This document shows positions 6,736 through 64,000 of a stretch of 64,000 nt of DNA, piece by piece. The notes below the pieces were generated by a model. It worked only from the letters and a program-made list of their open reading frames with translations, did no database searches and was not told where the DNA came from. How positions within the stretch are numbered: position 1 is the first letter of the stretch; each line of letters opens with the position of its first letter. Location: positions 1,116,001 through 1,180,000 of the forward strand of contig CM073204.1 of the NCBI GenBank assembly GCA_037042915.1, written 5' to 3'. Both the position numbers and the translations under genes were made by a program. This stretch comes from Auricularia sp. M13. Lineage: Eukaryota; Basidiomycota; Agaricomycetes; Auriculariales; Auriculariaceae.

Positions 6736-7408
6736 ATGGAAGGGAGCCCTTTCTCTTCCTCTCCACGGTATCCAGACAACATAAACGGCGTCCCGGTCCT
6801 CGTCACCGAGGAATTTCTGCACCGGGGCCCCGAAGCAGTGACATATCTCGTCCGGAGACCGCCCGGGACGCCTGAGGACACACGGCGCCTTGTCGTCAAG
6901 CTCTTCGAGCCGGTGTGGGATTCCTGCGCGGGAGAGGAGATCCCCCTGGACGAGCAGGGCATCGACGCCGAGGCCGACGCAATCGACATCGTCCGCGCGC
7001 GCTGCGGCAACGTCACGCCGGCGCTTCTGGGCCGCTATGTGAGCGACGCTATTGATGGAAGGGTGCTCCTGCAGGAGTACGGCGGCACGCGGCTGGAGGG
7101 TCACTACGACGCCCTCCCCCTTGCCGATCGGTACGTCTCGTTCTCTTCACAAATTCCCATGATTCGCGAAAAAAGAAATAATACTGTGATGTCGCAGCGA
7201 AAGCGTGTGGTCCCTGACGCGCAAGCTCCACGCCGCCCGCATTCTGCACGGCGATCTCGCGGAGCGCAACTTCCTCCGCGGGTCCGACGGCGAAATTCGC
7301 GTCATAGACTTCGGACACTGCGATGTGGAGCACGAGTGTCCCGGCGAGGACGAGTGTAGCGAGCTGCGCAATCTCATGTACGTCCTATTTCCGGAGAAGA
7401 GGAAATAG
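6736..7408 (+). CDS. small protein-kinase-like protein
   Basis: Two exons, 6736-7130 and 7198-7408, give 201 residues. The intron is GTACGT...GCAG in phase 2. The N-lobe part has LVVKLFEP (candidate ATP lysine). After the intron comes HGDLAERNFL, a variant of the catalytic-loop HRDxxxxN motif, and IDFG, the metal-binding DFG motif. The protein lacks most of the C-lobe, as do many short fungal kinase-like proteins of this type, so true kinase activity is uncertain. Upstream in-frame ATGs exist, but the chosen start gives the first compact domain. About 80 bp past the stop remain similar to the relic at 24.6 kb, so the ancestral C-terminus was longer. The next gene (BTB gene 1) is in the same orientation, and the same pair recurs inverted at 23.6-24.8 kb. 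Confidence 0.65.
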
Positions 7409-7665
7409 CTATGATGGCCTATGATGCGAGCAGTCCTTACCATACTCCGTTTTCCTAAGGATCTACGTTGCGGTCGCTCAAGAGCCGTCTCACAGGCCTG
7501 TATGCCACATTCATAGCGCATTCTGATTCATTCCATCTCCCCGGCTACTGTCACGGTATCAATCTACACTGTACAGCAATGAATGAACTCGGCGATACCT
7601 GGCACGGCCGGGCCCGACGCCTCGTGTTCTTCTTAACTTCTTAACCCGGTACCGTCACCGCCGCC
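7409..7665 (+). promoter_or_regulatory. upstream region of BTB gene 1 with shared 5' motif
   Basis: The first part (about 7455-7530) is leftover 3' kinase sequence. CCTCGTGTTCTTCTT at 7620-7634, about 30 bp before the ATG, recurs with small changes just upstream of three other BTB genes in the window (24491-24505, 31166-31180, 38477-38491). A pyrimidine-rich motif so near the start codon is plausible as a transcription-start element; this is inference. Confidence 0.45.
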
Positions 7666-8586
7666 ATGAGCCACAACGCCACATCTAAAGCCCACGCTGC
7701 CTTTCCAGGCCCAGCAAATACGACGCTCGTCTCTGCCGACGGCGTCGAGTTCCACATCGAGTCGTCGCAGCTAGCTCGCGCGTCAGGCTGGTTCCGCACG
7801 CTGTTCACGCTGCCACAGGGAGAAACCAAGCAGGACGCAATCGCTGTATCGGAGGACGCGCTGACGCTGGAGGTCCTTCTTCACCTGTGCTGCGGCACGG
7901 GGCTCGCGCCTGGTCTCTCGCGTCTCGCCAACCTCGGCGATCTCGAGCTGTGTCTCCGCGCGGCGGAGAAATACGAGATGGCCGAGGCGCTCGAGATACT
8001 GCCCCTAGTCCTGCACAAGGCCGATATGCAAGAGGACGCTCTGCACCTCTACGCTTTGGCCTCGAAATACGGCCAGGAATGCGTTGCGGCGAACGCGCTG
8101 AAGGAGCTCCAGACGCTGCGTCTCGATTTCGACGGCATGCCACACCTCGACTACGCGCAGTTGACCCGGCTGGTCGCCCGCCGCCAGGAGCGCATTGAGA
8201 AATTCTGTTTGTTGCTCGTTAACAACAACGCTGACGCGCCGTTCTACCTCGAAAACACCAATTACTGCACGCGCAGGAACAGTCAGAAGAGTCACCCCAG
8301 GACCAATGCGCAAGCATGGAACTCCCTGGCGATCGCGCTGCAGACCTCTTTCATCCTATGGCCGTCAATCGAAGCTCTCGAGTCGAACGGATGGGTGAAA
8401 GAGAAACTCGATGCAGTCAAGGATGTAACGTGTGGGTGGAGTGGCTGCCATTTTCCGCAGTACGAGTGGCGGGATATTCGCTTCCGGCTTCTGGAGGCGA
8501 TGGACGAAGAACATCAGCAAAGTTGGTTTTTGCTCGAGCTGGCTCGGGCTGGCTTTCCCGTGCTCAAGGCATTTGAGCAAGTTTGA
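7666..8586 (+). CDS. BTB/POZ domain protein 1 (C-terminus extended by a transposable element)
   Basis: Single exon, 306 residues. The N-terminal BTB/POZ fold reads TTLVSADGVEFHIESSQLAR, SGWFRTLFTLPQ, LTLEVLLHLCCG and AAEKYEM (residues about 18-130). A helical middle and a C-terminal block with YCTR and QYEWRDIRFRLLEAMDEE follow. Paralogs end right after this block. Here the frame runs on for about 24 residues because a TIR element starts at 8512, exactly at the ancestral stop; the stop is regained beyond the element's right end at 9652 (AATGAG). BTB proteins commonly serve as cullin-3 adaptors or transcription cofactors; the substrate is unknown. The gene pairs with the kinase-like gene upstream. 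Confidence 0.8.
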   Translation: MSHNATSKAHAAFPGPANTTLVSADGVEFHIESSQLARASGWFRTLFTLPQGETKQDAIAVSEDALTLEVLLHLCCGTGLAPGLSRLANLGDLELCLRAAEKYEMAEALEILPLVLHKADMQEDALHLYALASKYGQECVAANALKELQTLRLDFDGMPHLDYAQLTRLVARRQERIEKFCLLLVNNNADAPFYLENTNYCTRRNSQKSHPRTNAQAWNSLAIALQTSFILWPSIEALESNGWVKEKLDAVKDVTCGWSGCHFPQYEWRDIRFRLLEAMDEEHQQSWFLLELARAGFPVLKAFEQV

Positions 8587-51368: not shown

Positions 51369-52145
51369 TTAATATGTCGCCCGAGCCTGATGGTATCAGG
51401 ATGAAAAGCTTCCAGGGGACGCAATATCGGAGATAGCCGGTCGGCGGAACATCAGAAAATTATCGACGCCCTCAGAAAACATTTGTAGCGGAATCGTTCG
51501 TATGTACGCACATGTCCTCGATCCTATTAATATGTCGCCCGGATCTCATGGTATGAGATCCAAAAGGTTCCTGCGCCACGGAAACGAGGAAGGGGGGCTT
51601 GGCGCTGAGTCGCAAAATTGTGTTGGGCCCGGCAGTTCGATTGAGGGTTGGTGCCGGAATTTTGCGAGCCCCACGGCACTCTGCGTGCAAAGCGCGTTTT
51701 GGCCTTGTCCATCACTTGCCCATCATTTGTCCATCACTTGTCCGTGATTTGTCCATCATTTGTCCGACAAGAGACCGTCAAGAGCTTCCAGGGACTCCAA
51801 ATGAGAGCAGACACCCCGACAGCCATATATCTCCGGAAGGCTGACGATCGTGGCTACCTACGCAATGGTGTCGCTACCTCGGCCGTCCGTTGCCAAAGCG
51901 ACCCGGAATACCTGCCGATGTCACGAAACCCGGACAAGGAGCCGTATCTCCGCGAGGGGTGCAGCTAAACTCGCGGGACGACGAGCGCACGCATTCTGGA
52001 CGAGAGCCCAACAAATCCCCGACAAATGATGGACAAATGACGGACAAGGCGTCGACAAGGAGCCGTATCTCGACGAGGAGTGCAGCCGAAACCGCGGGAC
52101 GAAGACCTATTAATATGTCGCCTTTCTTTGATGACATCAAAGAAA
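51369..52145 (+). repeat. three TTAATATGTCGCC-hairpin cassettes
   Basis: The 13-mer TTAATATGTCGCC occurs at 51369-51381, 51527-51539 and 52110-52122. Each copy is followed by a different perfect hairpin: CCTGAT-GGT-ATCAGG (51386-51400), GGATCTCAT-GGT-ATGAGATCC (51541-51561) and TTTCTTTGAT-GAC-ATCAAAGAAA (52123-52145). An A-rich tract follows each hairpin. Arm sequences differ completely while pairing is kept. Confidence 0.7.
51932..52106 (+). repeat. diverged direct repeat, about 54 bp, two copies
   Basis: GACAAGGAGCCGTATCTCCG... at 51933-51986 recurs as GACAAGGAGCCGTATCTCGA... at 52054-52106, both containing GTGCAGC and CGCGGGACGA. The interval contains TTGTCCATCA-type words (here as GATGGACAAA) related to the satellite further right. 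Confidence 0.6.
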
Positions 52146-52304
52146 ATCGCTGCTGGAGGGGGGGTATCACACGCTATGACCTAGAATAAAAAGTTCCCAT
52201 ATAGCGCAAGGTCTTAAGAAACTTCTGTAGTTGGTCCGAGAATTTTCTGATGAATATATATCTCAGGGGAAAATGGCGAAAATAATGGTGTATTCTGGCC
52301 AGCT

Positions 52305-52360
52305 CCAGCAAACCAGCAAACCAGCAAACCAGCAAACCAGCAAACCAGCAAACCAGCAAA
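52305..52360 (+). repeat. 8-bp microsatellite (CCAGCAAA)7
   Basis: Seven perfect CCAGCAAA units end directly before the tandem array. Confidence 0.9.
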
Positions 52361-52396
52361 TTTTGGTGATGGACAAACTTTTGCGATGGGCTCTGG

Positions 52397-54385
52397 TCTG
52401 CTGAAGCCACAGAGTCGCCACCATCAAGGAGATTTGTCCATCACGAAAATTTGTCCATCACGAAAATTTGCTGAAGCCACAGAGTCGCGGCCATCACGGA
52501 GATTTGTCCATCACGAAAGTTTGTCCATCACAAAAATTTGTCCATCACGAAAATTTGCTGAGGCCACAGAGTCGCGGCCATCACGAAGATTTGTCCATCA
52601 CGAAAATTTGCTGAAGACACAGAGTCGCGGCCATCACGGAGATTTGTCCATCACGAAAGTTTGTCCATCACAAAAATTTGTCCATCACGAAAATTTGCTG
52701 AAGCCACAGAGTCGCGGCCATCACGGAGATTTGTCCATCACGAAAGTTTGTCCATCACAAAAATTTGTCCATCACGAAAATTTGCTGAAGCCACAGAGTC
52801 GCGGCCATCACGGAGATTTATCCATCACGAAAGTTTGTCCATCACAAAAATTTGTCCATCACGAAAATTTGCTGAGGCCACAGAGTCGCGGCCATTACGG
52901 AGATTTGTCCATCACGAAGATTTGTCCATCACGAAAATTTGCTGAAGACACAGAGTCGCGGCCATCACGGAGATTTGTCCATCACGAAAGTTTGTCCATC
53001 ACAAAAATTTGTCCATCACGAAAATTTGCTGAAGCCACAGAGTCGCGGCCATCACGGAGATTTGTCCATCACGAAAGTTTGTCCATCACAAAAATTTGTC
53101 CATCACGAAAATTTGCTGAGGCCACAGAGTCGCGGCCATTACGGAGATTTGTCCATCACGAAGATTTGTCCATCACGAAAATTTGCTGAAGCCACAGAGT
53201 CGCGGCCATCACGGAGATTTGTCCATCACGAAAGTTTGTCCATCACAAAAATTTGTCCATCACGAAAATTTGCTGAGGCCACAGAGTCGCGGCCATTACG
53301 GAGATTTGTCCATCACGAAGATTTGTCCATCACGAAAATTTGCTGAAGCCACAGAGTCGCGGCCATCACGGAGATTTGTCCATCACGAAAGTTTGTCCAT
53401 CACAAAAATTTGTCCATCACGAAAATTTGCTGAGGCCACAGAGTCGCGGCCATTACGGAGATTTGTCCATCACGAAGATTTGTCCATCACGAAAATTTGC
53501 TGAAGACACAGAGTCGCGGCCATCACGGAGATTTGTCCATCACGAAAGTTTGTCCATCACAAAAATTTGTCCATCACGAAAATTTGCTGAAGCCACAGAG
53601 TCGCGGCCATCACGGAGATTTGTCCATCACGAAAGTTTGTCCATCACAAAAATTTGTCCATCACGAAAATTTGCTGAAGCCACAGAGTCGCGGCCATCAC
53701 GGAGATTTGTCCATCACGAAAGTTTGTCCATCACAAAAATTTGTCCATCACGAAAATTTGCTGAAGCCACAGAGTCGCGGCCATCACGGAGATTTGTCCA
53801 TCACGAAAGTTTGTCCATCACGAAAATTTGCTGAAGACACAGAGTCGCGGCCATCACGGAGATTTGTCCATCACGAAAGTTTGTCCATCACAAAAATTTG
53901 TCCATCACGAAAATTTGCTGAAGCCACAGAGTCGCGGCCATCACGGAGATTTGTCCATCACGAAAGTTTGTCCATCACAAAAATTTGTCCATCACGAAAA
54001 TTTGCTGAAGCCACAGAGTCGCGGCCATCACGGAGATTTGTCCATCACGAAAGTTTGTCCATCACAAAAATTTGTCCATCACGAAAATTTGCTGAAGCCA
54101 CAGAGGCGCGGCCATCACAGAGATTTGTCCATCACGAAAATTTGCTGAAGCCACAGAGTCGCACCCATCACGGAGATTTGTCCATCACGAAAGTTTGTCC
54201 ATCACAAAAATTTGTCCATCACGAAAATTTGCTGAGGCCACAGAGTCGCGGCCATTACGGAGATTTGTCCATCACGAAAATTTGTCCATCACGAAAATTT
54301 GCTGAAGCCACAGAGGTGCGGCCATCACGAAAATTTGCTGAAGCCCCAGAGGCGCCGCCATCACGGAGATTTGTCCATCATTACA
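52397..54385 (+). repeat. 2-kb tandem array with higher-order repeat structure
   Basis: About 26 units each begin TTTGCTGA(A/G)G(C/A)CACAGAG, continue with TCGCGGCCATCACGGAG, and end in one to three copies of a 17-18 bp word ATTTGTCCATCACGAAA. Two main unit types occur: 87 bp (three words; CCATCACGG) and 70 bp (two words; GAGGCC and CCATTACGG). They alternate as a 157-bp dimer in the centre (about 53025-53496). Edge units are more diverged (54328 GAAGCCCCAGAGGCGCC). Long plus-strand open frames are a by-product of the 87-bp (3 x 29) period. Confidence 0.95.
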
Positions 54386-54839
54386 ATCGGTGACTGTCGA
54401 GCCAATTGAGCTCCGCCTCTACGGCTTTCTTCCACTCCCCCAGAACCTGCTGCGTTGAGCATGCTGCATCAAACACGGTATAATTAATGCTGCAAACGCG
54501 TGCTGTGCGTGGCCAGACTCTGGGGTGTTGGGCACCTGGAGAATGCGCATATATATTGCCGGTTGGTGCCGCTCCTCACCTCCCCCGCATGCAGACGCCG
54601 CAGGTAAGTAACCGGACTCCAGCGCTTTTTTGCTCATTTTCCGCCAACACAGGCGCAGAACCGGGATGTGCGCGCGTTATCGGGAATCGTCTCGGTGTAC
54701 CGCCCAAGTTTGTCACCGCGGCCGTGCGTTCAGCGTCACTGATCGTCGATCTTTGCTGACCGTTGCTGTTAGCTGCTAGTTCCGGGGCGACAACACCGCC
54801 GGCGGGCACATCCTCGCCAAATGAGGTTCCAAAGGGGTC
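54386..54839. other. intergenic, no gene seen
   Basis: Nothing recognised between the satellite and the copia fossil. Confidence 0.3.
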
Positions 54840-55716
54840 TCATTGCTGGGCCCAATCCAAACAGCTTCTTCGGCGCGCGGGACCGGCTTCCTGACGTCGT
54901 GTACCCGCACAGACCTTGCAGCCGAATGGGTGAGCACACAAATGGTGCGATGCGCCCGTGTCGATGAGTTGAAGGCTTTGCTGCCCGTTTGCCTGGAGTG
55001 GATTTGCCGGCGCTGTGCTGAGGTATGTGTGGTCCTTGATTGCATGCATCTCGGTCTTCTTTTCCATCTGGGTCTCCTCTTTCAGTACTGCCTCAGCCTT
55101 GCCTTTCGTCCCCTTTGCAAACTTTGAGTACTTGCGCTCTGATCCACCGCCCTTGCCCCAGCACTTCTTGGCTGTATGGCCTGTCTTCTTGCAGTTTGAG
55201 CAAGTTACGGGGTTGGACAATGGCTGTGGATTCGACTGGAGGTGACGCTGATAACACGCCGCCATATTGGCTTCTTCACGGTCACGCCATGCTAATGCCT
55301 CGTCAAATTTGATGGCCTCCGTGAGCAATGCATGGATGCTATCGAAATTGAGAAAGACCTTCGCCGACACGTGGCGGTCTGGGCGACGTAGCGGTACTGC
55401 TTCAGCATCGCCTTGATGAGGAACACAGTATACATATCCTCATGGAGCATGCCGCCCGCGGCGAGGTACTCATTGCACTTTGCAATGATGCGTTGAATGA
55501 CCTCGAGAACAACCTCTTCGTCACGTCCGATGCAGCGAATGTCCATGAGCTGCATGAGCAAATTGGATTTTGCCAGCACGCTCTGATTCTCGAACTTTAC
55601 AACGAGTGCGTTTAGCGTACAGGGACGAGCGTACAGAGATAGGCAATAGGTGGATGAAGAAAATCTTACAGAGATGTAAGCACAAATGTAAGTTGACCTA
55701 AAACCTTTCTTTTGCC
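54840..55716 (-). mobile_element. Ty1/copia LTR-retrotransposon fossil (gag and start of protease)
   Basis: A minus-strand stretch with a gag-type helical region, a CCHC zinc knuckle (CSNCKKTGHTAKKCWGKGG) and the beginning of a retropepsin with the DTGAS active-site motif, the order usual for copia elements. Integrase, reverse transcriptase and RNase H are absent, and no LTRs are recognised. It is broken, with at least two breaks; the readability suggests moderate rather than great age. It abuts the start of the gene at 55719. Confidence 0.75.
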
Positions 55717-55718
55717 AC

Positions 55719-57076
55719 ATGGGCGCCCAAGGGCTCGAGGCCTATCGCTACCGCCGCCGCTACTATACAGGATCTCACTGCAGCGACTCGTACTTTGATG
55801 GCCTCGGCGCTGGAATCGTGCTCTCCGTCCCCACCGATCCTACTCAGTTCATGCAATGGACCGAAAAACTGAAAAAGAAGCTTGAGAAAAAATATCAGAA
55901 ATGGATTGCCGAGATGAAGAGTATCGAGGCCAAGGAAGAAGGTACAGCAGGTTGGTCACCCAAGGGTCCGTTCACCATGCGGGCTCCAATACCGGGCCAC
56001 TCCATACCTTACACCTACGTCGTCGACCTTGACCGCAACGTATTCACCGTCAACGGCGTTGCGCACTTCCCCCTGGATGCCATTCTGCGCAATGATGAAT
56101 GGATTGCGGCAGTAGAGGATGACGGACATCCTGCTAGAATCCTTTCGCTCAACCCGACAGTGCCACCGCCCGATCCTCGTCTCCTGGCTCTATACGACGA
56201 TTGTCGCGCAACTCTATCTCGAATCATGCTCAAGGAGAATGGCCACTTTCCATTCCGCACCTGCGGCGTCCTCATGGACTACTTCTTCCACCAGTTTCGC
56301 TTCGTTTATTTGTCTCTGATCGACTGCATCGAGCAGTATGAGCCCAATCACCCGACTTTCTGGCTTTGGTCCAAGGCGTATTGGTTCTTGCGACTTGGGG
56401 CCAGTTTCACATTTCCGCCGACTCGTACTACGCCTACGACGCCTCCGACTACCCAATCCAAAGATTTGAGCCAGAATGGGCTGATCCCGCGCTTCACGAT
56501 GCAGATACATACTTCTGGTACTTCTTGACTCTGATCGTTCTCGACATCGGGCTTGATGATGAACAGCGCCTTCGCTCGGCCGTCGGAAAAGCGATTGACC
56601 TCTGGCGCACGTCGTCCAGGCCTTGCAAGAATGCTACTGCGTTCATCATCTCTCTCACATCGTTCATTGCGGTGTGCGTGTCGAATGAGACTGTTTCTCA
56701 TTCTCCACCCATCGATCTCCTTGGAACCGTGACCGTATCTCAACCGCAATTCTTGACATCTGCGCACACGCCAGGCTTCGAGCTCTTGAAGCAGCATTTT
56801 ACCCCGTCGCTGCCCGCTCCTGGGAGATACCAGCCGCTCAAGCTCCCTTACGACGTCCTCGAGCACGTTTTCAATATGTGTGACGGCGCGACTCTATCCG
56901 CCTTGACCCATACGTGCAAGGCGGTGGGCACGCTACTACTAGCCCGTCCGTGGTTTCGAATCTGGCAGTACCATCTCCTTTCCCACGTCGCCAAGAACGA
57001 ATTCACTGCGCTTGACAAGTCTGGCCGCTCAGTTAGTTGCAACTCCTGCATAATTCAAGTGTATCCGGACAAGTGA
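55719..57076 (+). CDS. F-box-containing protein of a large basidiomycete family (one apparent frameshift)
   Basis: The N-terminus MGAQGLEAYRYRRRYYTGSH and the block YVVDLDRNVFTVNGVAHFPL are characteristic of a big, unnamed basidiomycete family. A coiled-coil-like KLKKKLEKKYQKWIAEM lies at about residues 51-67. The frame breaks near 56384 (after SKAYWFL), and the next frame continues at once with ATWGQFHISADSYYAYDASD. One missing base explains it, giving about 452 residues. The C-terminal LKLPYDVLEHVFNMCDGATL plus ALTHTCKAV is a clear F-box, unusually placed near the C-terminus. The protein is likely an SCF ubiquitin-ligase adaptor. Either the gene is newly broken or the assembly lost a base. 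Confidence 0.75.
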
Positions 57077-57734
57077 AGAGTATACTGTATTAGCGACCAT
57101 ATCTACGAGGCTGATAAAGGGTATTTCGTCACAGACATCATCTCGACGCGTATCTATGCTCAGACCGGGGACCAATACAGCACGGCGCGCTGAGAATGGA
57201 GACCCTGCTTGAATAAGGTCTTCAGCTCGTCGTCGTCAGATTGCATTTCGTTTGCATTGCACTTGCAAGAAGAGAGACAAAGAGGTTTCAGCGGTGTGCT
57301 GCTCCCGAAACACCGGACACTCAACTGCAAGCTTTCATGTTGTCCGGCTTCCAGGAGAACTCGTATTTAAGAGCTTTCACGTGTCCTCTATCCGTATTTC
57401 GGGTTGTTGAACCTTATTAATTCATCACATGAGATCAATGTGGATTACAAGCCTCACCAGCGGACGCTCTGCAGTTACGCTCCGTTGCACAACCTAGTGC
57501 TCAATATCAACAAACCCAATGGAGATGTTTAGCTCTATTCTGTCACAGTGAGAGATTCGAGCTCTTACTCTCGCATCTCAATCGGTGTAAGACCTGAGGT
57601 CCCATCCGGGAGCGACCCGTCAGAGACATAGTGTGTCTGCGCATCAGACGCCGGCGTCGCGCAGAGGGTGACAAAGTGCTCGTTATTACAGCCCTACAGT
57701 GCTCGCAAGCGCATCGCAACACCACAGCTCAATA
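57077..57734. other. intergenic, no gene seen
   Basis: Convergent 3' flanks of the F-box gene and the zinc-module gene; no feature is recognised. Confidence 0.35.
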
Positions 57735-59432
57735 TCAATCGCCAAACACATGGAACTTCCTATACCGCCGGTTCGCCTTTCTTCCCTGCGGGTTCGGTTT
57801 TCCTTGCACACAGTCCTTGCACCTCCATTCGAGCCTGAGGAAACACTTGGCAAGATGAGCCGCATTCAATGCGCACTACATGGTGGCAGCTTACCTGTGG
57901 CTGGTTGTCCCTCTTTGCACATTCTGGTCCCATTTCAGTAAGACATTGACAGACAATGACGCAGTCAACCACACTGACCTTTATGCCAAGAAGCCAGGCA
58001 CTCTGCACAGATCAGTGTCTTGGGCTCGTCCCGAGCAACAGATCCACATGACATGCAGCTCGCAATGGGGCAGTTGTCACATCTGAAGCTCGAGTCGTTG
58101 CCCGTCACTTGCTTTTGCCAGTAATTTGCAACACAGACTGCGTTGTATTAGCGATGTGAGCGGGGCAAGATATGCCGACTCACGCGCATGGTAGTGCCAG
58201 TCGCAGCAGCTACACTTCACGACCTGCCGTGAAGCCATAGCGCTGGTGCAGAGCCCACAGCGCCGCGGCCTGCACGCATCACAGCGCCAGATGCGAGGGA
58301 GGACTGCCTCCTTACGCTGCGCTGATCTTACGGCTGAGAGGATATCTGTTCCCGGTTTCGAAGGAAGGCAGTCTTTGGTAGGATCAGTCCTTGCGCGTCG
58401 AAAGCAGGGCGCTGCGTACTTGGATGTGCACAACGCTCACACGTATCGCAATGCAGCAGCATGGGCACCCCGTCCTGGAGGCAGACGTCGCACGAAGAGC
58501 ACCGGTCGCAGACCCAGTCGTAAAGGATGTTGTGGGCCTCCCCCAGCTTCTGGCGCTCACGGCGCTGGTCGTAGTCCTCTTGATTCATGCCGCGCGGCAT
58601 TATCGGACAGTCTGCAAATATTATTGGTGCGAGCGCTGGACATATGTGCACGACGAACCCTGGTGGTATCCTCGGCGACAGCAGCGGCAATATACAAACA
58701 TACTCTTGCGGTCGCCGCCCGCCTCGTGGCAAATCAGGCATCCATCGGCGTCACACATATGGCAGATCCAGGCGGCTCCAGTGGCGCCCGTGCTCGCATG
58801 CGCGTAGCGCTTCTTGCAGTCTTCCCATAATGAGTTCAGAGAATACGAGGCTGGTTCGCATGTACGCACCCCGACAATACTTGTCGTCGCAGACGAGGCA
58901 CGTCTCGACGGCGTTCTCGTACTTGCGTCCACAACCAGCACATCGGTCGTCCTGACAGCTGTTGCAGAACCAGCGCTCGGCGTCGATGACGGCTGTTCCT
59001 TCGCTGTTGAGTCGCACGGCATCCGGACGCGGAAGTCTGTAGGCACAGTCTAATGCTCGTCAGCGCGGTACACCAGAGGCCATGGCGCATACCAAGATGA
59101 AATGCTATCCTGCACTCGGCGCAATGAAGAAGGAATCCCGTTGGGCGCCTGCAAGCCTGGCAGCGGCAGTCGCAACAGAAATAGGTCTCGCCCTGGAAGT
59201 ACGCGCCACTGCATTCTGCAGGTGCCATGTGAGTCCTTGGCGCGTCCTGGAGACATGCACCAAAGTGCGCACCTGCTTCCAGGTGGTATGAGTTCTTGCA
59301 GCGCAGGCACTTTACGCCGGCACCCGGTGCAATGAAGCGATTGCAGCAGCGACAGAACTCGGCAGGTGGTTCTGGAAGCTGGATTGCGGGTGGGCCTTTG
59401 TGGGCTGCGACATCAGCGCCGTCGCTGCTCAT
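57735..59432 (-). CDS. tandem PHD-like zinc-module protein, one module per exon
   Basis: Eight exons: 59432-59093, 59049-58870, 58820-58659, 58611-58420, 58372-58184, 58137-57979, 57923-57895 and 57845-57735, giving 453 residues. Each module reads W/F-x-C-xx-C ... C-xx-C ... L-x-x-C-xx-C ... H-xx-C. Examples are YFCCDCRCQACRR with LLHCAECRIAFHLDC; WFCNSCQDDRCAGC; WICHMCDADGCLIC with VYCRCCRRGYHQDC; WVCDRCSSCDVC with LLHCDTCERCAHPNC; WRCDACRPRRCGLC with KCSCCDWHYHALC; FRCDNCPIASCMSC with ICAECLASWHKEC; and WRCKDCVQGK. The first six introns are phase 1 and cut at the same place, two residues after His (or its equivalent) and just before the final Cys. This resembles PHD/extended-PHD zinc fingers, which often read histone tails; a chromatin role is inferred only. 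Confidence 0.8.
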
Positions 59433-59547
59433 GCCGATGTGGTAGGAAGCGAGGTCTGAACCAATTCGAAGCCCGACACCATGTTGCGTTAGTACGATGA
59501 TTCCGATGTTGCTGTGGCAAAATCAATTACGCTATCGACACAGCTGA

Positions 59548-60381
59548 TTAAGACATGAAGTCGATCTCGCCAAGCGCGTGTCTAAGCCAAAAGCTAGGCA
59601 ATCGATTAGCCCCACTGGGCCCAAGTGCCCACCTCTCCGGATCTGCAGCAATAATAGAGCAGGAGGTCGTGGTGATGCCGTGTTGCTCGATATGACGCAG
59701 TAGGATCGACTCGAGACGGTCGCAGCTGCGTAATGTATCCCAGTGCGTTTCGTCCTGCACGACGAAGATGATCTCTGCGATGCTATGCGCTGCGCTCGCA
59801 TCTAAAATGCGGCACGCAGCGATCGGGTAACAGCGCTTGAATGCTAAGGCCAGGCACCGGAGGTTGGGCATTCTGGAAACCATCTGGCCAAAGCGCTGCA
59901 TATTCTCCGGAAATGGTGCTAGCCACAGACGCCTGATCGTGGGTCGTGGTTGGGCTGGAACGATGAGCGGCATAAACCAACCGCCGGCATATTCGTCCAA
60001 GTATAGGTCTGAGACGCTGGCGTTGTTCACGGCGAGTGAGGTGTAGCCCGGTCCAGCTTGCAGCATGGTGAGGTCTGGTGCCAAGAGTCGCAGAAGATCG
60101 AGGAACAGATCCTCGTGAAACACAATAGCCCCGTGGGCAGAGACCGACAGCGCGCGCACTCTGAGGCGCCGGTGATCGCGGGCACGCTCCGCGACGAGCC
60201 GGTGAAACTGTCTCAGCTGGTGGGAAGCTATGATGTTCACCGTATCGAAGAGGATGGTCTCGATTCCATGGCGATGCTCGCTCCCGACTTGGCACAGAAG
60301 GTCGATAATCTTTGTCGGCCTACGGCCCGCGAAATGCCATGCCCAGTGCTTCAGCACCTCGCCCACGAGTTCCACAGGCAT
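59548..60381 (-). CDS. F-box-like protein
   Basis: Single exon, 277 residues. MPVELVGEVLKHWAWHFAGR at the very start is the F-box-like helix (P-x-E-L-V-x-E-V-L) of basidiomycete families. Then come ETILFDTVNIIASHQLRQFH and a leucine-rich body: LRLLAPDLTMLQAG, NLRCLALAFKRCYP, IAEIIFVVQDETHWDTLRSC. No breaks are seen. It lies in the same orientation as the next F-box-like gene (start 61324 or 61531), with which it shares its organisation; they are probably old paralogs. The expected role is SCF adaptor; the target is unknown. Confidence 0.75.
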   Translation of the reverse strand: MPVELVGEVLKHWAWHFAGRRPTKIIDLLCQVGSEHRHGIETILFDTVNIIASHQLRQFHRLVAERARDHRRLRVRALSVSAHGAIVFHEDLFLDLLRLLAPDLTMLQAGPGYTSLAVNNASVSDLYLDEYAGGWFMPLIVPAQPRPTIRRLWLAPFPENMQRFGQMVSRMPNLRCLALAFKRCYPIAACRILDASAAHSIAEIIFVVQDETHWDTLRSCDRLESILLRHIEQHGITTTSCSIIAADPERWALGPSGANRLPSFWLRHALGEIDFMS

Positions 60382-60559
60382 GAAGACCCTCTATTTTCCC
60401 GTCAATAGCTCCACATGTCTGCACATCTTCATGCGCACCTGCGAAATCTCAATTGTTGTGCTGGAATCCGTGGACATCACTGCGGTCATTACCCGAGGGT
60501 TAAACCGTGGTTCTTATATTATCCCAATGACAACGATTACAGGCACAGTCGTCAATGAC

Positions 60560-61531
60560 CTACAATGTTCCGTGTTTCCCCATCTGCCATGCGTCCGTCG
60601 CAGTTGTAATCCGGATTTCCAAATCCCTCTCCGCAATGCATCTCCCAACCTCACGTGCGGATGGGGCGCACACGTCCCAGCAAGCCACGATAAGCATAGT
60701 GTGTCGTATTCCGCCTTGGGTGCACCGCCTGAGGAACTGGCGAATTGTGTTGTATATCATTCCATTGAGTGGAGAAGCAGCGCTGACGTGCACTACGAGT
60801 GTGAGGCGCCGGAGGTTCTGGGCATTCAGGAGCAAGGCAGATGCTGTAATTGTGCGCGTTGGGAAGGGGTCCAGAACCACATCCGTAATGCTCCGGTTGA
60901 CGCCATACGCAGGCACCGGGGACAAGCTCCTGGGCAGCGCACCTGTGAGGTACAGGAGGCGCTGATAGCCCACGAAAAACGCCGCTGGCGCGTATGGCGG
61001 TGTTATACGTAGCAGTACGAGGTCACGCAAGTTGGCAAGGATGACCGACGCCATTGCACCTCCGATATTGCCGTGGTCGGGGACTAGGATAGATAGCGTA
61101 TGCACCTTTGCTGGATTTCGTGCAGTTCTGCGCGCCTTCGTAATGCGCCAGAGAGCAATCACATCCTGGGCGGTCAGGAGCTCCAACTCTGTATACAACA
61201 GAGGTTCGACAGTTGCATGCACATCCCGTGCCGCCTGCATGAGCGCCATTGCACCGCAGTCTTGTATGCGTAGAAATGCGATAACCCGAGTCAGGATGAG
61301 CAATAGCTCCTGGCGAGTAAGCATTTCGACGGTGGATGCGGGGAGCACAAGGCGATTGAATCTCGACTTTACTGTTTCCGGAGCATTTGTAACCCCGACC
61401 TTGCACGTGCTCCGCGGGGAACAAACTCTGCGATGCAACAGACTGCTAGATGCAGGCCGACAAAGTAGCTTCTTCACTGCCTTTGTTTCAACTGAAGGGT
61501 AGAAGACGTATGGCGCTGGCAATGAATCCAT
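60560..61531 (-). CDS. F-box-like protein
   Basis: Single exon, 323 residues from 61531, or 254 from the ATG at 61324 (MLTRQELLLILTRVIAFLRI), which I prefer because the first 69 residues are basic and low in structure. LMQAARDVHATVEPLLYTEL followed by LLTAQDVIALWRITKARR has the layout of the F-box-like gene at 42120 (ELARIALASSYLNAVATPAL then YHTVV). LRDLVLLRITPPY, ITDVVLDPFPT and NLRRLTLVVHVSA form a degenerate leucine-rich part. It is intact and of unknown target. Confidence 0.65.
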   Translation of the reverse strand: MDSLPAPYVFYPSVETKAVKKLLCRPASSSLLHRRVCSPRSTCKVGVTNAPETVKSRFNRLVLPASTVEMLTRQELLLILTRVIAFLRIQDCGAMALMQAARDVHATVEPLLYTELELLTAQDVIALWRITKARRTARNPAKVHTLSILVPDHGNIGGAMASVILANLRDLVLLRITPPYAPAAFFVGYQRLLYLTGALPRSLSPVPAYGVNRSITDVVLDPFPTRTITASALLLNAQNLRRLTLVVHVSAASPLNGMIYNTIRQFLRRCTQGGIRHTMLIVACWDVCAPSAREVGRCIAERDLEIRITTATDAWQMGKHGTL

Positions 61532-61819
61532 AGTGTCCGATGACTTGTATTGCTTTTCGCACGTAGAGGTGGAGAGAGCCTAAGCCAGAAAGACAGAGAT
61601 AAACACACCAACATGTGAGCTGCCACAGAGTAAAAAATAAGGTGAAGAACGGCGCGGAGGTCACATGGAGTAGGTGGTAATGTGAGCAAAGGAGAAAGCC
61701 ATCCACTGATCGCAAAGTGAGTGCGACGAAATCGCGGAGTCTGTTGTAAACCAGCAACAATTATGGGGCGAGAGGGAGGCGAGAGGGTGAGAGAGGAAAA
61801 GAGTAGGAAACTAGCCGAG

Positions 61820-63962
61820 CTATTCGTCGAGCATGAGATCTACAATGGAAACGAATGCATGGACGAAATTAGCGTGCGTCTCGTCAGAGTTCCGTGTAAA
61901 TAACCACGCCCAGTAAGAGTCAAACGTTGTCTGCGCGGTGATACTGGGGAAGAGCGGCGAGTCCACAAGCATGGATCGACGGAGGAGCCAGGCCCCCAGA
62001 CACACCTGCGGTATGATGTCCTCGTAGGTGCACTGGCTCCCATGTGTTGAGGTGTGGGGATGCAATGTGGGGGTGCGGGGGACCCAGCACCAGATACACG
62101 CAAGAGCGCCGTCGATTTTGACTTGCGCCTTAATCTGGGCATATGTCGCAGGTCCATGCGCTGTTTCGACGCTCGTGTGGACGATGTTGCACAGGCGAAT
62201 ACAGCTGGCTGTACCATGGTCGTCGTGTCTGGACCGATCGGCGAGCCAGCACCCGCGGCAGATATTCCTACTCCCATCAACATTTTGTCAAGACTCGCAG
62301 ACGTACGAACCTGAGCATCTCAAGGCGGACTTTGAGGTAGTCGTCCGCATTGCGTCTCACCACGGCCTCGGTGTTGAGGAGCTCGGCGCTCACGCGCAGC
62401 ACTGCATCGCACGCAGGATATGGCGTTGGCAGGGCAGCCGTTTGAACGATTTGAGAGCGAATGGGTGCCGCACGTGGAGAGATCGCAGCTCCGGGTGCAG
62501 GCGCGGAATAGTTTGGCACGCACCGTGAGCATGGCACGTAAAACGTCGGCAGATCGTCACAGCGCTCGCTGCAACCGTCGATATATCGTCCAGAGCCCTG
62601 GCGCAAACACGCGCGGTCGTCCTTTAGACACACCATCATCTCACGATGACCGAACATCCCAGGATTCGCAACAGAGTACGTTTTTGTCGGATCCAGGAGC
62701 GTGTGAGCCTCGCAATATGTATCTCCGCGCCCGCCACGCCCTGTGCCTTGCACATGCGTGATGTAGTTCCAGCTCGCACCGTACTCGACCACGAGACGCA
62801 CGCCCGGAAGATGGTAGCCAGTCGAGAGAAGTGTTGTCGCCACAATGAGCCGGTGGTGCCCCTGCTCCCATCGTCCGAGGGTCGCGGTGCGGTCTTCGGG
62901 TGGCAATTTGCCATGAAACGCCTCGCATCCCAGCTGCTGTGCGACCGCGACGGCCTCATCGATCTGCCTCACAAACACAATGCCGCGGTCTGTGCTGCTT
63001 GTGAGTAGACGATCTGCCGTGGTCGCGATGTGGGCGATGAAGTCAGATGTACGCATGCGGAAAACACAGTAGCGGATTGACGCCCGAAGCGACCGCTCGC
63101 GGAACGTCTGAGGCATTGCGATGTCTGCGATGCGGAGTTGCGTCAGAGCCTGATGATAGATATCGACAGGAACGGTGGCCGAGAGGAGGTGGATTGGGAC
63201 CGCGTACGAAGTCAGTTGAGAAGCATCCAGCATAGCAGGACGGTACGACCGATCCATCACCCACGAATGCATCTCGTCGAGGAAGAACCGCCGCAGACGG
63301 TCAGTTGCAGCTAGCTCTCGAACGCAGGCATGAAATTCGTCGGTACTGCCGGTCTCTGGGAGCACAAACGTCAGCTGCTGGAACTGGGAATCCCCGCGCT
63401 TCCAAATGCAGGATGGAACGCCAGCATCGCGGCTTGCGCGGAGGTGCGACTCGGCGAGAACAACCCAGGGTACGTAGACAATCGTGACGGAATGTGGCTG
63501 GTCGAAGTGCTTGCATGGTAGTAGCCACAGCATTGACTTTCCTCCGGCGGTAGGTAGGAAGGTGGCCGTGTGCACGTGCTGTCGCACGATAGCCTCCATG
63601 GCATCACGCTGCGCTGGCGATCGAAACGTGGCCCCGGGGTCGTCGAGAAAGGCGCGTAGAGACGTTAAAAGATCGCGGCCTTTCAAGTCCAGGACGGCGG
63701 CGGGCTGAACTGGAGCACGGGCGGGCGAACCAGCATACATTGGTACATAGCCATGACGCCTGAGTTCGTCGACCACCGCCGCCGCTGTTTGCGCATTTAG
63801 AGATGCAGCCAGTGCGCGCAAGCGAGGCTCTAGTAGAGGCATGAGGTTTGAGGCCAGCGTGGCCTCGTCGACGGCGAGAGCTCTCAAATGCGGAGCCAAA
63901 GCATTCACCACAGCGACTTCGAGTTTGGGATCGTCTGTTCGAGATACGCCGTCCTGCGACAT
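61820..63962 (-). CDS. RecQ-like superfamily 2 helicase (5' end probably beyond window)
   Basis: Exon 63962-62311 and exon 62267-61820, joined by a GTTCGT...GTAG intron, give at least 699 residues. Walker A is TAGGKS (residues 138-143), the DExH box is DEMH (229-232), motif III is SAT (261-263), STGYHLPGVRLVVEYG is the motif IV/V area, and QGTGRGGRGD (from 405) is motif VI. A C-terminal Cys-rich zinc region follows (ACLRQGSGRYIDGCSERCDD, PCSRC), and the second exon adds CRGC and ACIWCW cysteines. The frame stays open upstream of the ATG at 63962 (SSAAEAVPALD precedes it) up to the edge, so more N-terminus or an exon may lie outside. Such helicases form large families in Agaricomycetes, some subtelomeric. 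The expected activity is ATP-driven 3'-5' DNA unwinding. Confidence 0.8.
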
Positions 63963-64000
63963 ATCCAGAGCTGGTACTGCCTCTGCAGCAGAAGAGAGTG

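Follow-up and report, generated by a model that had tools for sequence, protein, structure and literature searches.

A six-copy fungal gene family encoding seven overlapping PHD fingers, with an intron inside each finger and a suggested link to RecQ-like helicases

We describe a nine-exon gene, hereafter W, whose predicted protein consists almost wholly of seven PHD fingers that overlap in a single chain, and which belongs to a family of at least six genes in the genome of Auricularia sp. M13. In every one of the six genes found there are seven fingers and seven phase-1 introns, and the introns lie at the same internal point of each finger (42/42). This gene layout suggests an old history of exon duplication together with a role in binding chromatin. 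The four genes of subfamily A, to which W belongs, each lie close to a RecQ-like helicase gene. We consider it moderately probable that the seven-finger chain arose by exon duplication before the split between subfamilies A and B and that it acts as a multivalent chromatin binder tied to the helicase. Clustered PHD fingers are known from animals; as far as the literature searched shows, what is new in the array described here is its size, its lineage, its exon register and its linkage to a helicase.

The window analysed is a stretch of 64,000 bp (C12:1116001-1180000) from an assembly of 52.1 Mb in 14 contigs, in which W runs on the minus strand from an ATG at position 59432 to a stop codon that ends at 57735 (Table 1). 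The nine exons measure 160, 123, 180, 162, 192, 189, 159, 29 and 111 nt and are separated by eight introns of 43-57 nt, of which seven are phase 1 and stand just before zinc ligand 6, and the eighth is phase 0. A first-pass annotation of this DNA had named six junctions (HL|DC, CR|DC, HQ|DC, HP|NC, HA|LC and HK|EC), all of which are found again on the minus strand, in phase 1 and bordered by GT-AG. The exons that they enclose, five in all and described as similar in size (159-192 nt), indeed measure 180, 162, 192, 189 and 159 nt. Its total of seven introns was one too few, given that the model has eight. The overlooked intron (59272-59216) splits what had been read as exon 1 at HLEA|EC, the same structural point as the other six. 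Its length in W is a multiple of three, yet it is needed in L010, L011 and L009, in which the frame changes there.

Table 1. Features of the PHD-array locus and of its relatives (positions without a contig name are those of the window)
Feature	Position	Strand	Description	Evidence or remark
PHD-array gene W	57735..59432	-	434 aa, nine exons, seven PHD fingers	gene model, PF00628, dN/dS against near copy
Exon 1	59273..59432	-	start and first half of finger 1	
Intron 1	59216..59272	-	phase 1, 57 nt	frame changes there in L010, L011, L009
Exon 2	59093..59215	-	second half of finger 1, first half of finger 2	
Exon 3	58870..59049	-	second half of finger 2, first half of finger 3	
Exon 4	58659..58820	-	second half of finger 3, first half of finger 4	
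Exon 5	58420..58611	-	second half of finger 4, first half of finger 5	
Exon 6	58184..58372	-	second half of finger 5, first half of finger 6	
Exon 7	57979..58137	-	second half of finger 6, first half of finger 7	
Exon 8	57895..57923	-	second half of finger 7 begins; stops at phase-0 intron 8	layout same in L010, L011, L009
Exon 9	57735..57845	-	end of finger 7, basic tail, stop	
ORF b	59551..60390	-	280 aa, F-box-like start by eye	no Pfam family at E 0.1
ORF a	60563..61579	-	339 aa	no Pfam match
RecQ-like helicase gene, 3' part	62280..63998	-	continues past the window	PF00271, PF00270; RecQ models best, under NCBIfam cut-off
OrsD domain	C12:1182189-1182485	-	about 2 kb upstream of helicase part	
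L010	C2:69.7-71.4 kb		array gene, subfamily A	
L011	C2:2605.7-2607.4 kb		array gene, subfamily A	
L009	C12:1197.5-1199.3 kb		array gene, subfamily A	
L044	C12:1187.6-1189.2 kb		array gene, subfamily B	
L045	C2:56.8-58.4 kb		array gene, subfamily B	
Array remnant	C12:1206.1-1206.4 kb		two B-type exons	

The zinc ligands of a PHD finger follow the order C-C-C-C-H-C-C-C, usually with an aromatic residue two before the seventh. All eight ligands are in place in 39 of the 42 family fingers (C4-H-C3 pattern, with Cys permitted at ligand 5), ligand 5 is His in 38 and Cys in 4, and the aromatic residue two before ligand 7 is found in 41. The earlier assignment of W to PHD-type zinc fingers is upheld by PF00628, which matches the whole protein in five stretches at 58.4 bits against a cut-off of 24, and a Pfam scan of the protein returned PHD models only, with no SET methyltransferase or other domain. 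Adjoining fingers overlap in the chain, the closing C-x2-C of one being followed within 1-4 residues by the opening C-x2-C of the next.

The introns of W sit between ligand 5 (H) and ligand 6 (C) of each finger; hence every internal exon encodes half of each of two fingers, completing one and beginning the next. Scored against PF00628, six of the seven units that straddle an intron match over the full length (profile 1-47), with 12.0 bits for finger 1, a weak match, and 32.0, 26.7, 22.9, 21.0 and 20.0 bits for the others, finger 3 giving none; two of the seven exceed the cut-off of 24 as single fingers. Units cut at the exon borders instead (exons 2-7) gave no full-length match in six attempts, and three half matches only (profile 1-25, 1-25 and 1-24). 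The title under which the gene was first described, with each exon as one PHD-like module, is wrong in register, though a repeated exon does exist.

Searches of the genome with pieces of the family yielded at least five further array genes (L010, L011, L009, L044 and L045), and further distant members are possible because these searches scored best candidates only. Subfamily A comprises W, L010, L011 and L009, and subfamily B comprises L044 and L045, whose genes seem to have an additional exon upstream at the start; L044 is 30% identical to W. Borders are GT-AG in 41 of the 42 phase-1 introns and GC-AG in one, their lengths are 43-75 nt, and branch-point-like motifs occur in 35 of them, compared with 500 shuffles that gave 11.4 on average and 21 at most. 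An additional phase-0 intron in finger 7 is present in the A genes and absent from the B genes. W and its near copy L010 are 88-99% identical in their exons, with no exon gaps and five intron gap positions, and the near copies L044 and L045 likewise have no exon gaps and 18 intron gap positions. Comparison between copies establishes the exon layout modelled for the array genes. An intronless or unrelated layout in relatives, the finding that had been named as speaking against the proposed structure, is absent from the paralogues in this genome. The loci at C2:57 kb and C12:1188 kb were taken up as candidate intronless relatives on account of multi-exon stop-free matches and rejected, their introns being identical in position. 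The sole GC-AG border belongs to intron 3 of L045, where the near copy L044 has GT. Short tandem repeats adjoin a B-type array (L044, from about 3800 on) and also the array remnant (L048, about 6800 to 8000).

Both near-copy pairs are under purifying selection. Differences are greatest at third positions, and dN/dS is 0.21 (NG86) or 0.32 (YN00) for W against L010 and 0.14 (NG86) or 0.22 (YN00) for L044 against L045; comparisons of W and of L010 with L011 are saturated and give no dN/dS. These values, well below 1, together with the confinement of gaps to introns and the open reading through every modelled exon in W, L010, L011, L044 and L045, make it highly improbable that the array gene and its copies are decaying, functionless subtelomeric duplicates. 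Decay is seen at individual loci: two neighbouring ORFs are broken in the L010 block, and L009 has a frame change in exon 3, which at 179 nt is not a multiple of three; L009 may thus be a pseudogene, or its sequence may contain an error.

The shared intron position is exceptional among the PHD fingers of this genome. PF00628 gave 17 matches at E 0.01, of which one is a family member and 16 served as controls. An intron at the array point and in the array phase interrupts 42 of 42 family fingers and 1 of the 16 others (Fisher 5e-13), or 7 of 7 against 1 of 16 when W is taken alone (Fisher 3e-5), the 1/16 being a low estimate because an exon-by-exon profile search tends to overlook split fingers (it found 1/42 of the family). 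Three control fingers (L020, L023 and L027) are split at other points and 12 others are uninterrupted at the array point. Across the six genes, 35 of 36 internal exons have a length that is a multiple of three. Two nearly identical PHD-finger loci, L016 (C10:3459927) and L017 (C10:3489152), lie on opposite strands 29 kb apart. At C6:3207796-3207876 (L028) a PHD finger that we take from its motif to be of NTO1/BRPF type is interrupted by a phase-1 intron at precisely the array point (HQ|DC), and it differs from the family in having no array in the stretch read.

The tandem exon duplication proposed for W is borne out by shared intron position and phase, but not by residual similarity between fingers. 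Outside the ligands, identity is 10.2% within the W array (36 columns, 21 pairs) and 10.0% between W and ten other PHD fingers (70 pairs); three other arrays give 10.1 versus 10.3, 9.5 versus 9.2 and 12.3 versus 10.7%, and the ten control fingers share 17.3% among themselves. Given that similarity among fingers of the same array does not exceed their similarity to unrelated PHD fingers, intron position by itself carries the case for duplication. Between A and B genes, fingers at the same position are 14-17% identical and those at other positions 9-11%; over three exons W aligns collinearly with the B genes at 33-36% identity. The same-position finger of L044 is the best match of four of the seven W fingers (fingers 3-6), and for W fingers 2 and 5 a control finger outscores every finger of L044. 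A tree of the fingers (47 columns) leaves 29 of 47 inner branches open, with bootstrap not settled, and intermixes controls with array fingers. Positions 3, 4 and 6 form single groups in this tree and positions 1, 2, 5 and 7 do not; position labels change 11 times compared with a shuffled mean of 36.6, a contrast that is helped by the near copies, and the tree lends weak support to clustering by position.

We infer that the array was made by exon duplication, probably before the A-B split, and most simply by tandem copying of one phase 1-1 exon with its borders inside the finger, between ligands 5 and 6. The copies would have diverged long ago, and the number of seven fingers would have been kept since the subfamilies parted; the suggestion that module number evolves in this protein finds no counterpart here, with seven in 6/6 genes of this genome. 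Alternatively, introns could have been inserted repeatedly and independently at a preferred point of an existing seven-finger gene, with no exon duplication, which would agree with the lack of special similarity between fingers of one array and with the intron at the exact point and phase in the NTO1-like gene, a different protein. Such repeated insertion is quite improbable in view of an intron in 7/7 fingers of each of six genes against 1/16 elsewhere (the 1/16 being biased low), and of the split fingers L020, L023 and L027, which are cut at other points. Searches for relatives outside this genome, with two peptide patterns each, gave 139 pattern matches in viral contigs and 36 in bacterial and archaeal contigs, none of them confirmed.

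All four A-type arrays lie downstream of a helicase gene. The helicase at the W locus matches the DEAD and Helicase_C families, and its best family models and solved relatives are RecQ-like, though the scores are under the NCBIfam cut-off. The four helicase loci found in the genome are the four A-type array loci, and the arrays follow at 1.3-2.8 kb (2848, 2088, 2477 and 1305 bp from the array start to the end of the helicase match). The fifth match, on C7 (28% identity, E 3e-4), probably represents a different helicase. The pair at four loci implies at least three duplications. An OrsD domain lies on the same strand approximately 2 kb upstream of the helicase at the W and L010 loci and is also present near the L009 helicase; at the L011 locus none was seen in the part of the region scanned. 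Comparison of the W and L010 helicases gives a dN of 0.018 and a dS of 0.215, the helicase being more strongly constrained than the array. The helicase at the L009 locus carries a stop.

ORFs a and b, which lie between helicase and array, have matches only at the W, L011 and L010 loci, and neither was found at the L009 locus. The order helicase, a, b, array is intact at W and L011 and decayed at L010, where a is a two-piece remnant and b is in three pieces with one stop; L009 has helicase and array alone. Array and helicase are the parts kept at all four loci, and a and b are not. Beyond the array, an ORF with a weak F-box match below the cut-off (window 56342-57073, plus strand) is convergent with the PHD gene and lies outside the homology between W and L010.

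The distance to the contig end is approximately 71 kb for the W block, approximately 70 kb for the L010 block and 47 kb for L009 (end of C12), and the L011 block lies 2.6 Mb inside the 5.18-Mb contig C2. No TTAGGG run was found in the stretches examined, which do not include contig ends. The W and L010 blocks fall in a segment that the final part of C12 and the first part of C2 have in common at approximately 90% identity. This inverted segmental duplication of approximately 17 kb (C12:1173353-1190530 and C2:about 55.5-71.8 kb, ~90% identity) covers window positions 57353-64000, L043 and L044 on one side and L010, L045 and L046 on the other, with a gap at window positions 60816-61644.

This arrangement raises the question of whether a selfish or mobile subtelomeric block (helicase, a, b and array) carries the array as cargo, with the array serving the spread or upkeep of that block rather than host chromatin. 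The recurrent four-gene order at W and L011, its decayed form at L010 and the helicase and array alone at L009 are in keeping with such a block, as are the failure to find a and b at any other place and the position of two loci 70-71 kb from contig ends in a segment duplicated at ~90% identity. However, no terminal repeats or target-site duplication are seen at the edge of the W-L010 homology (one edge, by eye), the W-L010 duplication extends past the block, one block is internal to its contig, and the W and L010 arrays are still under purifying selection. We regard the mobile-block reading as somewhat unlikely. The linkage at 4/4 loci, from which we infer a partnership of array and helicase, suggests that the array serves the linked RecQ-like helicase or the chromatin around it.

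Elsewhere in the window, an ORF at 54843-55439 (minus strand) has a CCHC knuckle and by eye resembles a piece of a Copia-type retrotransposon polyprotein. Window positions 51523-54390 hold long ORFs made of a short repeated peptide, and a 0.6-kb stretch of that region has five matches in L049 at 84-95% identity. The genome contains 16 matches to PF11895, which we take to be the extension domain of class II fungal peroxidases, and on these matches it is probably that of a white-rot Agaricomycete.

As to function, the earlier suggestion of a multi-reader chromatin protein is a plausible prediction. Several weak fingers acting on H3 tails or on neighbouring surfaces would add up to multivalent chromatin binding. 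A tryptophan two before ligand 5 is typical of H3K4me3 readers; none of the 42 family fingers has it, compared with 4 of the 10 controls. Hence the ligands are likelier to be protein partners or tails that are unmodified or carry other marks. The nearest solved chains by profile are KMT2D (9atn, E 2.7e-5) and KMT2C (2ysm, E 5.8e-5), both over W fingers 6-7, followed by MTF2, DPF3 and KDM5. We propose that the array is a multivalent chromatin binder that does not chiefly read H3K4me3 and works with or for the linked helicase.

The fingers could instead be protein-protein or ubiquitin-ligase-like modules without a chromatin role. C4HC3 zinc ligands are also found in RING variants, the H3K4me3-type tryptophan is missing, and the profile assignment of single fingers is mixed: finger 3, with Cys instead of His at ligand 5, has no PHD match and weak B-box and FYVE matches, and for fingers 1, 6 and 7 another model ranks above PHD, all of these being under the cut-off. 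However, PHD is the best model for three fingers of W and matches six of seven over the full length, the aromatic residue before ligand 7 stands in 41/42, and most of the nearest solved chains are chromatin readers (KMT2, DPF, KDM5 and MTF2), so a role away from chromatin appears distinctly unlikely.

Several consecutive PHD fingers, as in W, are known from KMT2C and KMT2D and from Drosophila Lpt/Cmi, the first two of which also supply the nearest structures (9atn and 2ysm). W differs from these in having seven fingers in one chain, half-finger exons and a linked helicase, and in being fungal, not animal. It shares with KMT2 (MLL) proteins a cluster of at least three PHD fingers, whereas the SET methyltransferase domain of the latter was not found in W. 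DPF2 and DPF3 contain two adjoining PHD fingers, with profile matches over the end of W finger 4 and the first half of finger 5; only two fingers are present there, compared with seven in W and no non-PHD domain found. According to the available part of a 2023 paper (PMC9813062), H3 binding by clustered KMT2 PHD fingers strengthens as fingers are added, Drosophila Lpt is a separate protein with a PHD quartet and triplet apart from the SET protein, and, to the knowledge of its authors, PHD triplets and quartets are confined to the KMT2A-D proteins of animals.

The helicases of the array loci share the RecQ-like core and, at three of the four loci, a nearby OrsD domain with known subtelomeric RecQ-like helicases of fungi (TLH, UTASa and UTASb of Ustilago, and the set of A. 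bisporus var. burnettii), and two of the four loci lie approximately 70 kb from contig ends. They differ from the known ones in that a PHD array follows each of them. The term 'PHD' does not occur in the available parts of two papers on subtelomeric RecQ-like helicases (PMC7473861 and PMC10532341). In the same parts, the A. bisporus paper leaves the role of these helicases open and the U. maydis paper cites a proposed role in telomere maintenance. The accessible part of PMC9692433 holds nothing on arrays. Fungal multi-PHD arrays, or PHD genes beside subtelomeric helicases, were not among the matches listed in a literature search whose scope leaves out most subscription journals.

With all introns at one and the same point inside the fingers, a chain that has lost or skipped an internal exon would still be made of complete, if hybrid, fingers. 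Single-exon skips made in silico kept all eight ligands in 33 of 36 cases, and the three that failed (L009 exon 2, L044 exon 4 and L045 exon 4) did so because the halves there already lack a ligand. Exon loss, gain or skipping would thus leave the ligand set unharmed, which may be the reason that the layout was kept. A more far-reaching reading, which we hold to be rather unlikely, is that the seven-PHD protein and the RecQ-like helicase with its linked OrsD make up a single heritable unit, which spreads among the ends and the interior of chromosomes, with the array binding nucleosomes for the helicase and varying in length and specificity by splicing or recombination.

A seven-finger chain in six fungal copies contradicts the statement that such clusters are confined to animals, and it offers an independent case for studying the function of clustered PHD fingers. 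Its half-finger exons illustrate clearly how, in a natural repeat protein, exon borders can lie inside the fold, and the pairing with a helicase provides a handle on a subtelomeric helicase class whose role is still discussed. If the heritable-unit reading is true, array length and specificity could vary by splicing or recombination while the fingers are left unbroken.
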